Assembly (NCBI GenBank): GCA_944331895.1
Contig: CALVIX010000007.1
Coordinates: 1-48,011 of the forward strand
Source: an uncultured Bacilli bacterium
GTDB taxonomy: Bacteria; Bacillota_I; Bacilli_A; RF39; UBA660
Reading direction: 5' to 3'
Length of the DNA: 48,011 bases
Shown: piece after piece, positions 188 through 9,073 of the stretch
Numbering within the stretch: position 1 is the first letter of the stretch
Layout of the letters: each line of letters opens with the position of its first letter
Program-made: the position numbers and the translations under genes
Notes under the pieces: generated by a model
What the model was told of the DNA's origin: nothing
The model's input: the letters and a program-made list of their open reading frames with translations, nothing else
Database searches by the model: none

Positions 188-216
188 CCCTCTTACAAGT
201 TTTTTGGTAAACAAAA
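175..216. other. Element end / attachment junction next to ftsW C-terminal fragment
   Basis: ftsW sequence up to about 187-191 meets element sequence. From the core CCCT (188-191) outward into the element there are four bases, then CAAG (196-199), six T and GG (206-207). The other end of the element shows the same layout on the opposite strand (CAAG at 8067-8064, GG at 8057-8056). Rejoining the two gives a roughly symmetric attP, as large serine integrases use. The ftsW side supplies half of attB. Confidence 0.82.
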
Positions 217-247
217 ATGATGGTTGCAAGTTTTTTGGTAAACAAAA
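196..247 (+). repeat. Two direct 21-bp repeats at the element end
   Basis: A 21-base sequence beginning CAAGTTTTTTGG and continuing TAAACAAAA occurs at 196-216 and again at 227-247, a period of 31 bp. The first copy is the attP arm itself. The second lies inside the element and may be an accessory integrase or directionality-factor site. GGTAAACAAA also occurs on the minus strand over the start codon of the 41-codon ORF (2076-2066), and TTGGTAAACA occurs near 7900 on the minus strand. Confidence 0.75.
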
Positions 248-2369: not shown

Positions 2370-3050
2370 TTATTTATTTGGATTAAATTCTTTAACATTG
2401 CCAAATATTTCTAATTTTTTATTTATCCTGTTATAAATTAGTGCTCCGTCATCAAATATTGCATACACTTTTTTTTGAGTATCATTAGAAACTTTTTGTA
2501 ATGAATCTAAATATCTTTTATTATTTACTGTATGAACATCTATATAAAAAGGATCATCTAATACACCAAAACCATCATAGAATGCAAAATATTTATAAAA
2601 ATTATTTTTTGCGGTAATAAAATATCTTTTTAATTGAAGTTCTGTCCCAGCACTTTCTCCAATTATTAATCCATCAAAATACTTTATATCATAAAATATC
2701 TCAGTATCATGAAGTACTTTTTTAAAAAACATTTCTGGATTACCACCAGGTAATAATAATACATTAGATTCTTTTATAATGTTTTTAAGTTTTTCCTTAG
2801 AATCACTGTAACAATTACATACGGTAATATTATTTTCTTCTATACCAATTTTTTTAAGTTCATTTATATATCTATTATATCTTCTTTCTCCCTTTTTAAA
2901 GAATTCATTATCTAATTTACAAGCATCTATTTCAACTGGAAATGTCCAAGGAAATATTGCTACCTTAGGATTTTTAGGTAATATTTCTAACATTCTATCT
3001 TTAACTATATCCATTCCTATTTCTATTCTACTAAATAATATACTATACAT
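2370..3050 (-). CDS. S51/PepE-like Ser hydrolase (class I glutamine-amidotransferase fold)
   Basis: 226 residues. The pattern LLLPGGNPEMF, then GLIIGESAGTELQL with a Ser nucleophile in GxSAG, then DVHTVNNKRY with a candidate His, matches the Ser-His arrangement of dipeptidase E and cyanophycinase-like S51 proteins, which cut aspartyl or related isopeptide bonds. Length is normal for the family (about 220-240). No signal peptide, so it is cytoplasmic. It is the last gene of the cargo operon; its AGGAGG is embedded in the two Arg codons that end the upstream methyltransferase gene, four bases apart, which implies coupled translation. The substrate cannot be read from sequence; a role in processing an aminoacyl or peptidyl product of the operon is speculation. 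Confidence 0.8.
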   Translation of the reverse strand: MYSILFSRIEIGMDIVKDRMLEILPKNPKVAIFPWTFPVEIDACKLDNEFFKKGERRYNRYINELKKIGIEENNITVCNCYSDSKEKLKNIIKESNVLLLPGGNPEMFFKKVLHDTEIFYDIKYFDGLIIGESAGTELQLKRYFITAKNNFYKYFAFYDGFGVLDDPFYIDVHTVNNKRYLDSLQKVSNDTQKKVYAIFDDGALIYNRINKKLEIFGNVKEFNPNK

Positions 3051-3054
3051 AACA

Positions 3055-3903
3055 TTACCTCCTTATTAATTTTTTTGCTGCCATTTGTCCACATCCAACA
3101 TCTATTTTATCCCCTACACTTTCAAATTTAGAATTATGAATATTTCTTTTATCTAATAGTCTATGTAACTTTAAATATCTATCATCAGTAGCTTTCTCAA
3201 ATTTTCCACCTTCAATTGGATTGTAACTACTAATTTTTAATCTATCATCATCTTCTAAAAATTCAAGTAATTCATAAAAATCTTCATCTGAATCATTAAA
3301 TTTTTTTAATAATACATAATTAAATTCAGCTTTGTGAATACTATGTTTTTTATAATAATTCATTGCCTTTCTTAATTCTTCAAAAGAAGAATGAGAAGGT
3401 ATTAATTCTTTTCTCTTTTTATCGTTAGGTGCATGTAATGATATAGTAAGCTTGAATTGTCTAATGTTATTAAAGTCTTCAGTTAATTTAACTATATCTT
3501 TTGAATATGGTAATGTTGTAGCAAGCGCAAAATATATTCTTTCATCTCTTTCAGTTAATTCTTGTATAGCAACTAGAACATTATCATAATTTAACATTGG
3601 TTCTCCAACCCCCATGAAGCTACAACATAAATAATCATATTTCTTTAACAATTCAAACTGTTCAATAATATTACCAATCTCATCTAAAATTTCTTGTTTG
3701 GTCAAATTTCTATGATAATTCTTATTTATTCCATTATAACACATTTGGCATGATATAGGACATCCAATTTGACAAGAAACACATAAGTGACATGTATTTC
3801 CATCATCAAAAACACCTGTTTCAATCACAAAATTATCATCCGTTGCTTGCAAAACTTTAGCTGATAATTTATCTTCACTAATAATCTTATCTATTATTTT
3901 CAT
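3055..3903 (-). CDS. RlmN/Cfr-like radical SAM methyltransferase, short form
   Basis: 282 residues. A radical SAM cluster motif CxxxCxxC lies at Cys48, Cys52 and Cys55, preceded by Cys41 in LCVSCQIGC at the place of RlmN Cys118, and followed by the GGE-like GVGEPMLNYDNV, SLHAPNDKKR and the C-terminal DVGCGQMA with Cys271 at the place of the methyl-carrying Cys355. Thus the residues for RlmN-type chemistry (methylation of adenine C2 or C8 in 23S rRNA or tRNA) are kept. The usual N-terminal accessory domain of about 80-90 residues, used for RNA recognition, is missing. The start ATG overlaps the upstream stop as ATGA, with AAGGAAGG before it. Housekeeping RlmN is about 345-370 residues, so this is a distinct relative, perhaps with another RNA substrate. 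Resistance of the Cfr kind is possible but not shown. Confidence 0.88.
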   Translation of the reverse strand: MKIIDKIISEDKLSAKVLQATDDNFVIETGVFDDGNTCHLCVSCQIGCPISCQMCYNGINKNYHRNLTKQEILDEIGNIIEQFELLKKYDYLCCSFMGVGEPMLNYDNVLVAIQELTERDERIYFALATTLPYSKDIVKLTEDFNNIRQFKLTISLHAPNDKKRKELIPSHSSFEELRKAMNYYKKHSIHKAEFNYVLLKKFNDSDEDFYELLEFLEDDDRLKISSYNPIEGGKFEKATDDRYLKLHRLLDKRNIHNSKFESVGDKIDVGCGQMAAKKLIRR

Positions 3904-4988
3904 AATCTACCTTCCTTATATAATCTTTTCATTTCTTTAATATTATTTTGCATATTACTTTTTTCATTTAATATTTTAAATATTAATTCCTCTAATGGTA
4001 AATCACTTTCTAATAATTCCTTAGAAGAAATTATCATAGCATTATAAAGATTTCTTAATTTAGTATCACTAATATTATTTAAATATGTTGTATTTGTAGA
4101 TGACCAGTTACAATTCTTATTTTTCCATCTAAAATTATATAATAATAATAATTGCTTATATTCTTTTAATTTTCTTAATTCATATTGCCGTTTAGCTTCT
4201 TTTAAATCTACATTTAAATATGGATTAGCAATAAACACAAGTTCTTTATTAGATGTTTTTTCAGCTAAATAATTCATTAAAAATATTAAAAATAATTGAT
4301 GATTACTAGCAATATAGATTTGCTTAGGATTATCATACAATTTAAAATAATTACTCCAAACAAAATCAACATCTATATTAAATGGTCCAGACAAGGTATC
4401 TATTACATATCCAGTATTTCTATTTTTTGAAACTAAAATATCTGAATTATTAAAAGTCCTAATAAATGCATTCATTTCTTTTTTTAAATATGGAGGACAT
4501 ATAGAAGGAATTTTTACATCATCTTTTAATTCAAATACTAACGATTTTTCTATATACTTGGAACATACTTGATTGCAATAATTGCATATAATATTGCCGT
4601 TTTCTATTCTGTATATTTTGCCATTATTAACTGATGATGGAATCATATCTACTCTTCCACATTCACATCTTATTTTTTCTTTTTGTTTTATTTTTAAAAA
4701 TCCATCATAGTACATTTTATCTACTATCTCCAATAATTGGTCACCGTGATCTTTGTCCACAAATATTGAATCATATTCTATTTTAGATTTACTAATAGTG
4801 TCTAAGTAACCATCTAATTCAGTATCCTTTTGTTCATAACTATGGATTATATTAAATCCTATATTCTTTTTTGCTTCAAGCACGTCCCCAACAAAGTCCA
4901 TTATAGTTGGAGATAAAAGCATGCCAATATTAGTTTCCTTTTGTGGTTTTACTGGTAATGTTGATATTAAAATTTCTTTACTTTTCAA
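3900..4988 (-). CDS. MetRS-like class I aminoacyl-tRNA synthetase relative, signature motifs lost
   Basis: 362 residues from a TTG start at 4988, chosen because AAGGAGG lies 8 bases before it; that site also encodes the end of the upstream gene. The order of segments follows MetRS: ILISTLP, then NIGM where HIGH is expected, IMDFVGDVLEAKKNIGFNII, a Zn-knuckle-like insertion CECG...CNYC, LVSKNRNTGYVID, FVWSNYFKLY, IYIASNHQLF and FIANPYL. The sequence then leaves the family just where KMSKS should stand; no KMSKS or anticodon-binding domain is visible. ATP-dependent amino-acid activation is therefore doubtful. It may bind tRNA or an aminoacyl-adenylate, or sense something. It overlaps the methyltransferase start by 4 bp and follows the nucleotidyltransferase by 2 bp. 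Confidence 0.75.
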   Translation of the reverse strand: MKSKEILISTLPVKPQKETNIGMLLSPTIMDFVGDVLEAKKNIGFNIIHSYEQKDTELDGYLDTISKSKIEYDSIFVDKDHGDQLLEIVDKMYYDGFLKIKQKEKIRCECGRVDMIPSSVNNGKIYRIENGNIICNYCNQVCSKYIEKSLVFELKDDVKIPSICPPYLKKEMNAFIRTFNNSDILVSKNRNTGYVIDTLSGPFNIDVDFVWSNYFKLYDNPKQIYIASNHQLFLIFLMNYLAEKTSNKELVFIANPYLNVDLKEAKRQYELRKLKEYKQLLLLYNFRWKNKNCNWSSTNTTYLNNISDTKLRNLYNAMIISSKELLESDLPLEELIFKILNEKSNMQNNIKEMKRLYKEGRL

Positions 4989-4990
4989 TT

Positions 4991-6121
4991 TTAAAACCTC
5001 CTTAAAATCAAAATACATTTATCATATAAATTTTTCTTTTTAGTATTCAAATCTTTTAATATGTTTTCTCTATTAGTTAAAGCTTTATAACTTTCGTTTA
5101 TACTATGTATATCAAATATAGCATTTGAATGAGAACTTAAATCTATATTTTTTTTATCAAGTATTAATTGTAAATCTTGTATAGACTTTAAATATTCATT
5201 AAATAAATTAAATAAATTTTTATCTAATATGTTTGATTCATTAAAAAAACAATCTATATTAAATTTAATTACATTTTTATCTAATCTATAAAATATAGCT
5301 AATAATTTATAAAAATTAAATAATACAGTTGTTTTATATATTTTTTTTAATAAAGCATTTTCTACATAAGTCAAATCTTCATCTAAGTAATTATCATCTC
5401 TTTTTATATCATTTAATAAATTATCTATAAATATATTTATATTATTATTTTTCCTATATTCATTTCTATATTTTTTATATATTTTTAAATATTTTTCATT
5501 AAAAATAAATTCAAAACAATATGTCCATTCGTTAATATTAAATTCATTATCATATTTATTAAAATAATTAATTACATCATATATACTTCTTGTAGAATTA
5601 TATGTTTCATACATCAATTGTTCCGCATTCTCCCTACATTTAACTTTTATTTTTCCATCTATAAAATTAAGGACATATTCATTATTATCTATGGCACTTA
5701 TCTTTTTTTCACCTATTAAAGGCAAATACACTACCATACTATGTAATTTATCTTTACCTCTAAATTTTAATACTTCTTGTAATATATAATTTATTTTATC
5801 TTCAATATCTATAATATCTTGATAATTATGTGAAGTTGTTAAATAATTAATATCTATATCACTAAATAAGTTATTAGAGTTTCTTGCTAAACTACCACTT
5901 AATGTTATACAAAAATCAATATTATAAAAATTTTTAAATATACAACCAAGCTCATTAATCATTTCAATTATATAATCTCGATATTTTTTATTCAACATAT
6001 TAAATTCTTTTATAGAAATATCAAAAGCTTTAGATTCATAATAATCTCTTAATCCTAATATTTTATCTCTATAGGAAGATATAAATTTATTTTTTATTAT
6101 ATTATATTTTTCTAAATTCAT
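4991..6121 (-). CDS. Nucleotidyltransferase of the pol-beta superfamily
   Basis: 376 residues. The catalytic signature GSLARNSNNLFSDIDI (Gly76-Ser77 and Asp88/Asp90) is the GSx(n)SDIDI motif of pol-beta-type nucleotidyltransferases (the group of GlnD, DUF294, aminoglycoside adenylyltransferases and MenT/AbiEii-like toxins). The rest is a Lys/Asn/Tyr-rich, probably helical region without a motif I recognise. Start 6121 is preferred over 6163 because it has AAGGA at the right distance and lies one base after the RSH stop, whereas the longer ORF would overlap the RSH gene. Substrate is unknown; a protein, a small molecule such as an antibiotic, or tRNA 3' ends are possible. The neighbours favour a tRNA or translation target, by inference only. 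Confidence 0.82.
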   Translation of the reverse strand: MNLEKYNIIKNKFISSYRDKILGLRDYYESKAFDISIKEFNMLNKKYRDYIIEMINELGCIFKNFYNIDFCITLSGSLARNSNNLFSDIDINYLTTSHNYQDIIDIEDKINYILQEVLKFRGKDKLHSMVVYLPLIGEKKISAIDNNEYVLNFIDGKIKVKCRENAEQLMYETYNSTRSIYDVINYFNKYDNEFNINEWTYCFEFIFNEKYLKIYKKYRNEYRKNNNINIFIDNLLNDIKRDDNYLDEDLTYVENALLKKIYKTTVLFNFYKLLAIFYRLDKNVIKFNIDCFFNESNILDKNLFNLFNEYLKSIQDLQLILDKKNIDLSSHSNAIFDIHSINESYKALTNRENILKDLNTKKKNLYDKCILILRRF

Positions 6122-7565: not shown

Positions 7566-7600
7566 AAAAATTCCTCCAAAACTACACTAAAAACTTAAAC

Positions 7601-7631
7601 AAAAAGCATAACAAAATTATGTCATGCTTTT
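7601..7631 (-). terminator. Leader terminator (attenuator) before the RSH gene
   Basis: On the minus strand AAAAGCATGAC (7631-7621) pairs with GTTATGCTTTT (7612-7602) around an 8-base loop and runs into a T tract, about 37 bases before the RSH start. The 5' arm is also the last codons of the upstream ORF (AGC ATG ACA, stop TAA in the loop), so a ribosome finishing that ORF would cover it and block hairpin formation. Confidence 0.8.
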
Positions 7632-7727
7632 ATTTGAAAGGGCCAAAAAAGAATTTATATTAATATATAAATATTCATAAAAGTTACAAAAAAATTTTAA
7701 TTCACTCGCTTTTATAAATTTACTCAT
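7617..7727 (-). CDS. Leader peptide (uORF) of the cargo operon
   Basis: 36 residues, beginning MSKFIKASELKFFCNFYEYL and ending LSNKSMT. It starts about 30 bases behind the predicted transcription start, with AAAGGA 12 bases upstream (somewhat far). It is rich in Phe and Tyr (FFCNFYEYLY), which could be a stall-prone stretch. The stop codon lies in the loop of the intrinsic terminator. The longer open frame up to 7883 crosses the promoter and is not likely to be translated. Overlap of uORF and terminator resembles the leaders of ribosome-protection and rRNA-methyltransferase resistance genes, where slowed ribosomes allow read-through. Confidence 0.72.
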   Translation of the reverse strand: MSKFIKASELKFFCNFYEYLYININSFLALSNKSMT

Positions 7728-7761
7728 CAAAATCAACAATCCTTTAAAAATATTACAAAAT

Positions 7762-7790
7762 AATTTACTATTTTTTATATTCTTTGTCAA
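7762..7790 (-). promoter_or_regulatory. Promoter of the cargo operon
   Basis: Perfect -35 TTGACA at 7790-7785, spacer 17, -10 TAAATT at 7767-7762 (minus strand). Transcription would begin near 7755, giving a leader of about 190 bases before the RSH gene. Between 7791 and the element end at 8072 I see only AT-rich DNA with a weak inverted repeat (CCCTTATTTTATGGG plus T run near 7944-7960) and no gene. Confidence 0.72.
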
Positions 7791-8041: not shown

Positions 8042-9067
8042 TTATACTATTTTCTCCCATTTTCTTGCATACCCTGTCACTGGAATCAAACCGACGACCA
8101 CACATAAATTTAATACTGCCTGAAACGCAATCTGGAAAGTAATTCCAAAAGCGAGATATTTAGAAAAAAGATCGTTGCTCTTTCGAGCAATTTGAAATCC
8201 CTTATAAATAATTAGTATAAACAAGGAAGCAACGATAATCACGCCTAAGAACCCAAATTCTTCACTTATGATCGAAAAGATAAAATCAGTCTGTGGTTCA
8301 GGCAAATAAAAATGCTTTTGTCGCGAATTTCCAAGACCGTACCCAAATAAACCTCCTGGACCAATCGCATAGAGAGATTGAATCATTTGAAACCCACTTC
8401 CTAATGGATCTTTCCATGGATTCAAAAATGATAATATTCTTTCTAATCGATATGGCGCTACCGCAATTAAACCAGCGATCCCAAGCAGTCCCAACAATCC
8501 AATCCGCAAGAAAAATTTAAATGAAACACCACCTATGAATAATAAACCAATAACACTCATTACCAAGATCATACCAGTTCCAAAATCAGGCTGTAACATG
8601 ATGAGCCCAAATATGAATAAAGTAAGACCTAAAATAGGAAGAACTCCAGTTTTAATTTTCTTCATATCTTTCTCATTTCGATAAAGATATTTTGCGGTAA
8701 ACATAATAAGTCCCAATTTAGCAAACTCACTTGGCTGAATTCCAAAAGACCCTATCCCAAACCAACTACGACTTCCATTTCGAACTGTTCCTACTCCAGG
8801 AATCAATACGAGAATTAACAAAATAATACATCCGATTAAAATACGATTCACGTTTTTTTCATAAACATGACAATCGATCTTACTAATAAAATACATAAAA
8901 AGAGTCCCAATCAGAAAGAAGAGCCCCTGATTCTTAACAAACTTAAATGGATCGTTAAACTTATATTCCGCCCACACGTAAGATGCGGACGCGATCATGA
9001 CAATACCAAAAATAGAAATGAATAAAACTCCTAATAACAATACATAATCAATTTTCCCTTTTTTCAT
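8042..9067 (-). pseudogene. ftsW: FtsW N-terminal part, truncated by the element
   Basis: SEDS-family septal peptidoglycan glycosyltransferase, partner of FtsI. 341 residues are encoded: 332 native ones, with the multispanning membrane profile and family segments such as NGSRSWFGIGSFGIQPSEFAKL, PDFGTG and PQTDFIFSIISEEFGF, followed by nine element-encoded residues (YARKWEKIV) and a stop. The last 31 residues with the PFxSYGG signature lie at 92-187. Loss of this end and of the last membrane segment should damage function. The start is ATG 9067, or GTG 9073 directly behind the mraY stop. As ftsW is normally essential, another copy, RodA substitution, or excision in part of the population has to be assumed. 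Confidence 0.93.
8055..8080. other. Element end / attachment junction inside ftsW
   Basis: Core CCCT at 8072-8075. Toward the ftsW side (plus direction) the sequence continues the in-frame codons of PVTG; toward the element it shows, on the minus strand, four bases, CAAG (8067-8064), six bases and GG (8057-8056), matching the spacing at the other end. Reading through it gives the truncated FtsW nine foreign residues. Confidence 0.82.
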
Positions 9068-9073
9068 ATGCAC

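Follow-up and report, generated by a model that had tools for sequence, protein, structure and literature searches.

A short rel gene and its leader in an inserted element

The window, by which we mean the whole stretch of 48,011 nucleotides that was analysed, is one contig of a 13-contig, 1.12-Mb genome from an uncultured Bacilli bacterium. An ftsW/spoVE-type gene in it is interrupted near its 3' end by an element of about 7.9 kb. The front part of the split gene (positions 8042-9073, minus strand) runs ...GLIPVTG and then continues into element sequence, and the remainder (VTLPFLSYGGSSLL...) is located at about 98-196 on the minus strand. The element carries a short rel gene preceded by a leader and followed by genes for a nucleotidyltransferase-like protein, a zinc-ribbon-like protein, an RlmN/Cfr-like radical SAM protein and an S51-like peptidase (Table 1), after which a large serine recombinase is encoded in the same element. 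The probable start codon of the nucleotidyltransferase-like gene is an ATG one base past the rel stop (6121), which suggests that the two genes are co-transcribed.

Table 1. Features of the leader and the operon in the window; L004, L005 and L072 are related loci.
Feature	Position	Strand	Remarks
-35 hexamer TTGACA	7785..7790	-	From sequence; TTGAC kept across related leaders
-10 hexamer TAAATT	7762..7767	-	17-nt spacer from -35; similar promoter region in L004 and L005, both without the leader
Weak Shine-Dalgarno AAAGGA of the uORF	7740..7745	-	From sequence
Leader uORF, ATG, 36 codons and TAA	7617..7727	-	Peptide MSKFIKASELKFFCNFYEYLYININSFLALSNKSMT*, poorly conserved
Intrinsic terminator hairpin	7602..7631	-	AAAAGCATGACA-TAATTT-TGTTATGCTTTT, then U-rich tail TGTTT; core identical in L072
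GGAGG Shine-Dalgarno of rel	7573..7577	-	From sequence
Short rel (P0005), HD-SYN-TGS, 480 aa	6123..7565	-	No C-terminal regulatory part
Nucleotidyltransferase-like gene	4991..6121	-	Probable start matches the gene start in L004 and L005
Zinc-ribbon-like protein, no known family	3900-5018	-	Operon member
RlmN/Cfr-like radical SAM, without N-terminal domain	3055-3903	-	Fourth operon gene
S51-like peptidase	2370-3050	-	Operon member

Precise excision by the serine recombinase would rebuild the ftsW/spoVE-type frame, an arrangement that recalls sporulation-regulated insertions. The left element end (window 193-247) contains copies of a 24-nt sequence (TTACAAGTTTTTTGGTAAACAAAA) spaced 31 nt apart, possibly recombinase binding sites. 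A second mraY gene (60% identical) and further ftsW/rodA-type genes are present in the genome (L151, 2607-3596; L162, 1682-2740; L160, 21-371), and the split gene may thus have counterparts elsewhere in the genome.

The leader has the composition proposed in an earlier, sequence-only reading of this DNA, which had described a TTGACA promoter, a 36-codon uORF and an intrinsic terminator with the uORF stop codon in its loop. This description proved exact: the final codons of the uORF form the 5' arm of the terminator, the loop begins with the stop codon TAA, and the hairpin has an energy of -13.8 kcal/mol as compared to -3.97 +/- 1.95 kcal/mol in shuffled sequences (z = -5.0), with 0 of 200 shuffles reaching an equal value. 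A pattern scan of the region identified two terminator-like sites, as compared to 0.2 in shuffles. Promoter hexamers by themselves occurred at chance level in the region scan (7 observed, 6.3 expected), and the promoter call in the window is thus backed by its conservation rather than by the hexamer match. The Shine-Dalgarno sequence of the uORF is poor, and TTG codons immediately 5' of the ATG are possible alternative starts. The single cysteine codon of the uORF is codon 14, located 58 nt upstream of the hairpin.

The window leader stands directly ahead of a real gene, rel, and none of the other sets of a promoter, a uORF and an overlapping hairpin in the near-complete genome (1.12 Mb) was judged convincing. 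Rfam models, among which riboswitches and T-boxes were tested, gave no match that reached a leader in the window or in 14 related loci. A T-box leader (133.5 bits) was found in L066 at 3058-3268, just 3' of a short rel gene.

Conservation of the leader with short rel genes

We compared the regions upstream of 80 related short rel genes with those of 20 long rel genes, which served as controls; the window brings the short rel set to 81. A strong hairpin, defined as one of at least -7 kcal/mol that ends 12-48 nt 5' of the gene, was identified ahead of 62 of the 81 short rel genes, including the one in the window, as compared to only 2 of the 20 long rel controls. Among the 52 leaders having both the hairpin and a TTGAC promoter, 43 contain a uORF that starts with ATG behind a ribosome site and terminates within the hairpin. 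The number expected by chance from dinucleotide shuffles is 2.1, and the maximum in 20,000 simulations was 10. A search that allowed 40-100 nt between TTGAC and the uORF start gave a spacing of 50-66 nt for 50 of 54 related leaders. No leader was recognised for about 30 of the 80 short rel genes, which is explained partly by contig ends or misplaced starts and partly by true absence.

It is the design of the leader that is conserved across these loci, as judged from sequence comparison, and not its sequence. Neither a conserved uORF peptide nor common C-terminal residues were found across the related leaders. In the comparison of the window with L072, the Rel proteins are 96% identical and the hairpin cores are identical, and the uORFs share 85% of their nucleotides but only 58% of their residues.

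These patterns bear on another account of the hairpin, in which it is simply a terminator shielding rel from transcription that arrives from upstream, and the ORF lying over it is due to chance. Short ORFs arise easily in AT-rich DNA, and the promoter match itself is at chance level, as noted above. However, the hairpin is located 3' of the conserved promoter of rel itself, and uORFs that end in it occur 20 times more often than in shuffles, which already contradicts the insulator interpretation and makes this account hardly credible. A promoter, a translated-looking uORF and an intrinsic terminator are conserved as a unit ahead of the gene and, on this anatomy and conservation, the window leader is a predicted leader-peptide transcription attenuator. 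The suggestion of the sequence-only reading that expression should depend on translation of the leader to its stop is supported on the same grounds.

The same reading had assigned the attenuator to the cargo operon. In L004 and L005, two sister elements, the ftsW/spoVE-type gene carries the same insertion, with the site, the cargo and the recombinase shared with the window element (95-99% identity), but rel, the uORF and the terminator are all missing; a similar promoter is located directly 5' of their nucleotidyltransferase gene. L072 has rel and the leader at the same insertion site as the window, and L065 contains only rel, the leader and the S51 gene. Moreover, the genes surrounding short rel vary between genomes, so that the leader is present in unrelated contexts. 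Since L004 and L005 have the cargo without rel and leader, and L072 and L065 have both, the leader travels with rel and not with the cargo. A leader that belongs to the mobile cargo operon is thereby ruled out.

In L006, the operon is located behind an intact ftsW end, and a possible 19-codon uORF (MNNFLYDNIFTNSLPRQCN) lies at about 1030-1090 between the promoter and the nucleotidyltransferase gene, with no clear terminator; it is perhaps a decayed or a different leader. Subsets of the cargo co-occur in other Bacilli (L002, L003, L007-L013), and no match to the cargo protein P0001 was found in plasmids, phages or viral contigs.

Many genomes of the sampled family contain the short Rel as a second protein beside a normal long Rel, whereas a class-wide sample of 395 genomes yielded no short Rel above the cut-off outside the family. 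In a phylogenetic tree, a fully supported branch separates the long Rels from the other sequences. The HD, synthetase-fold and TGS domains of bifunctional Rel proteins (RelSeq, B. subtilis Rel) align over nearly the whole 480 residues of the short Rel, which differs from them in having no C-terminal part after TGS and in the residue at the position of the catalytic glutamate of the synthetase, RelSeq E323. This glutamate, which is present in 20 of 20 long Rels, is replaced in all 80 short Rels compared (glutamine in 79, lysine in 1); the window protein has Gln319 at this position and intact HD residues. In the HD domain, the residues for metal and substrate are retained: R44, H53, H77, D78, E81, D144 and N148 in 80 of 80 short Rels, and D82 in 79, with one D-to-E change. 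According to a statement in PMC13299517, which cites Hogg et al., the E323Q change removes detectable synthetase activity from RelSeq.

With the catalytic glutamate of the synthetase lost and the HD residues kept, the short Rels are probably enzymes that only hydrolyse (p)ppGpp. This predicted role is made less certain by the report that Rel fragments without the C-terminal part can show strongly reduced hydrolase activity (PMC13299517). The predicted net hydrolysis is shared with small alarmone hydrolases (SAHs) and hydrolase-type SpoT, but the short Rels have kept the synthetase fold and lost its catalytic residue. SAHs have neither a synthetase fold nor a TGS domain.

Cysteine codons and the direction of the proposed switch

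The uORFs were selected blind to composition. Cysteine accounts for 6.5% of their residues, which exceeds both the 1.1% in long ORFs from these loci (p = 2e-49) and the 2.8% in shuffled uORFs (p = 4e-15). The excess is confined to reading frame 0 and depends on position: in-frame TGY codons make up 11.7% within the zone 12-48 nt upstream of the hairpin versus 2.7% elsewhere (p = 3e-11), with values of 3.4% and 4.3% for TGY in frames 1 and 2. Cysteine density is highest 24-36 nt before the hairpin and low at 0-12 nt, and the position of the cysteines varies over about 12 codons between leaders. At least one cysteine is present in 47 of 54 uORFs and at least two in 33, with none in the remaining 7. 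Control codons for one residue at a specific position, as in amino-acid attenuators, are thus found at the family level. An aromatic run (FFCNFYEYLY) in the window uORF had been put forward as the sensor; aromatic codons are ruled out in this role, since phenylalanine occurs at the shuffled expectation, tyrosine is less frequent than expected, and close relatives have an altered run.

The cysteine signal is a family-level claim, since the single cysteine of the window uORF lies outside the 12-48 nt zone and the L065 uORF contains none. These two leaders fit a gate that responds to translation in general, with the cysteines being incidental. For the family as a whole, such a gate without amino-acid specificity is unlikely, since the enrichment is strong, in-frame and position-specific, and no other residue is comparable; the window copy, with its weak signal, may nevertheless act only in this way. 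We consider it probable that cysteine supply decides whether the short rel is read across dozens of related gut bacteria. The cysK and cysE genes are absent at curated cut-offs from most family genomes sampled, as would be expected if cysteine has to be imported; a cysK-like gene below the curated cut-off is, however, present in the window genome.

Two sets of results bear on the direction in which the switch would operate. First, partition function calculations indicated that the 5' arm of the terminator pairs with the upstream leader less often than in shuffles (0.21 versus 0.47; p = 3e-9), and no antiterminator that competes for the 5' arm, as in trp/his-type leaders, was found by this method, either with or without a stalled ribosome; a ribosome at the last cysteine codon did not raise the pairing. 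Termination should consequently be the default. Second, if the ribosome is taken to shield 13 nt on its downstream side, 80% or more of the stem is covered in 37 of 45 leaders when the stop codon occupies the A site. A ribosome at a cysteine codon, by contrast, leaves the stem free at 80 of 87 codons and blocks half of it or more at only 5. We infer that the polymerase would read through when the ribosome is at the stop codon and terminate when the ribosome is held at cysteine, so that a disturbance of translation should turn the genes off and not on.

The opposite direction is seen in well-known amino-acid attenuators, including a proposed Cys-codon uORF of cysS in the Rhodobacterales (PMC8632094). 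If it applied here, a ribosome stalled at cysteine would block the terminator, by way of an antiterminator that escaped detection or a footprint longer than assumed, and starvation would turn rel on; the few leaders with a cysteine codon inside or at the hairpin would be consistent with this. Such a polarity is nonetheless unlikely, given that pairing of the 5' arm with upstream sequence is below and not above that of shuffles, that the cysteine peak is located beyond the ribosome footprint and density is low where occlusion would need cysteine, and that a hydrolase turned on during starvation would be hard to explain.

Drug- or ligand-stalled ribosomes offer another possibility. The sequence-only reading had appealed to the logic of inducible resistance leaders (Erm, Tet(M), ARE-ABCF), with the system being switched on by disturbed translation. 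This analogy is not supported, as no antiterminator or other alternative structure to be freed was found, a ribosome held at cysteine leaves the terminator free, and the first gene codes for a Rel/SpoT homologue and not a resistance protein. In the broader form of an arrest-peptide or drug-sensing leader (TnaC, Erm or VmlR type), a ribosome arrested at the uORF end would let the polymerase through. Because the stop codon falls within the hairpin, stalling there would permit read-through as well; the cysteine residues would then lie within the exit tunnel, to judge from the geometry, and the element itself contains an RlmN/Cfr-like gene, although no such gene was found next to 20 other short rel genes that were tested. 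Arguing against an arrest peptide are the lack of a conserved peptide, as in the comparison of the window with L072, and of shared C-terminal residues, together with the shifting position of the cysteines. On balance, we regard this explanation as unlikely.

The reading that we favour, with somewhat better than even confidence, is a translation-dependent antitermination gate that controls the short rel gene of hydrolase type and, in the window, the operon downstream, and that would close when Cys-tRNA or translation is short. With a ribosome at the uORF stop, the 5' arm would be covered during the passage of RNA polymerase, and rel would be read. If the ribosome is held at cysteine codons because Cys-tRNA is scarce, or if no ribosome is present at all, the hairpin would be free and transcription would end. 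The hydrolase would thus be made only as long as cysteine and translation suffice; starvation would cut it off, and ppGpp made by the long Rel would accumulate. In the window copy, with its weak cysteine signal, the gate may respond mainly to translation in general.

Precedents for the individual steps come from other systems. Termination in E. coli falls from about 90% to < 10% when a stop codon is placed 5 bp ahead of a terminator (PMC4824070), and an unrelieved stall motif ahead of the pyrL terminator reduces expression (PMC5021804). B. subtilis RNA polymerase is reported to outrun the ribosomes, as cited in PMC9226507, which would weaken a gate of this type unless the polymerase pauses; NusG-type pause motifs (TTNTTT) were not enriched before the hairpin.

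Relation to known attenuators and possible meaning for the stringent response

The closest likeness in mechanism is to the pyrBI operon of E. coli, in which a ribosome on the leader peptide pyrL that lies over the terminator lets the polymerase pass, and a lagging ribosome results in termination. By geometry, the short rel leader resembles this system in that the ribosome at the uORF end covers the 5' arm of the terminator. It differs in that pyrBI reads UTP via the speed of the polymerase, whereas cysteine decoding is presumed to be the variable here and rel is the target. Attenuators with Cys-codon uORFs, such as uORFC-8-2 before cysS (PMC8632094) and the actinobacterial cys leaders (PMC1262725), also have a short uORF with cysteine codons ahead of the gene, and a terminator in the cysS case. 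These have been proposed to switch on in cysteine shortage and to serve cysteine metabolism (PMC8632094, PMC1262725), while the short rel leader has no antiterminator that could be found, an opposite polarity as deduced above and an alarmone enzyme as its target. Leaders of the VmlR/Erm type likewise combine a uORF with an intrinsic terminator ahead of a Bacilli gene, but the VmlR leader needs a drug-stalled ribosome in the uORF that frees an antiterminator (PMC9226507), the element that was not found in the short rel leader. A limited search of the open-access literature, which does not prove absence, identified no leader attenuator on a rel gene.

Taken at the level of the family, the leader may be an inverted amino-acid attenuator in these small-genome gut Bacilli, in which the speed of reading cysteine codons would set the dose of a synthetase-dead Rel and would provide RNA-level control of alarmone destruction in parallel to the ribosome-bound long Rel; we give this wider proposal about an even chance. 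The short Rels themselves constitute a widespread group in which the natural glutamate-to-glutamine change equals a laboratory null mutation. If the proposal is true, a sign-reversed amino-acid attenuator without an antiterminator would operate in a lineage related to B. subtilis, in which transcription reportedly outruns translation. The stringent response would gain a second, transcriptional input in these bacteria, where a starved ribosome would trigger the synthesis of ppGpp and would also shut off the supply of the enzyme that destroys it.
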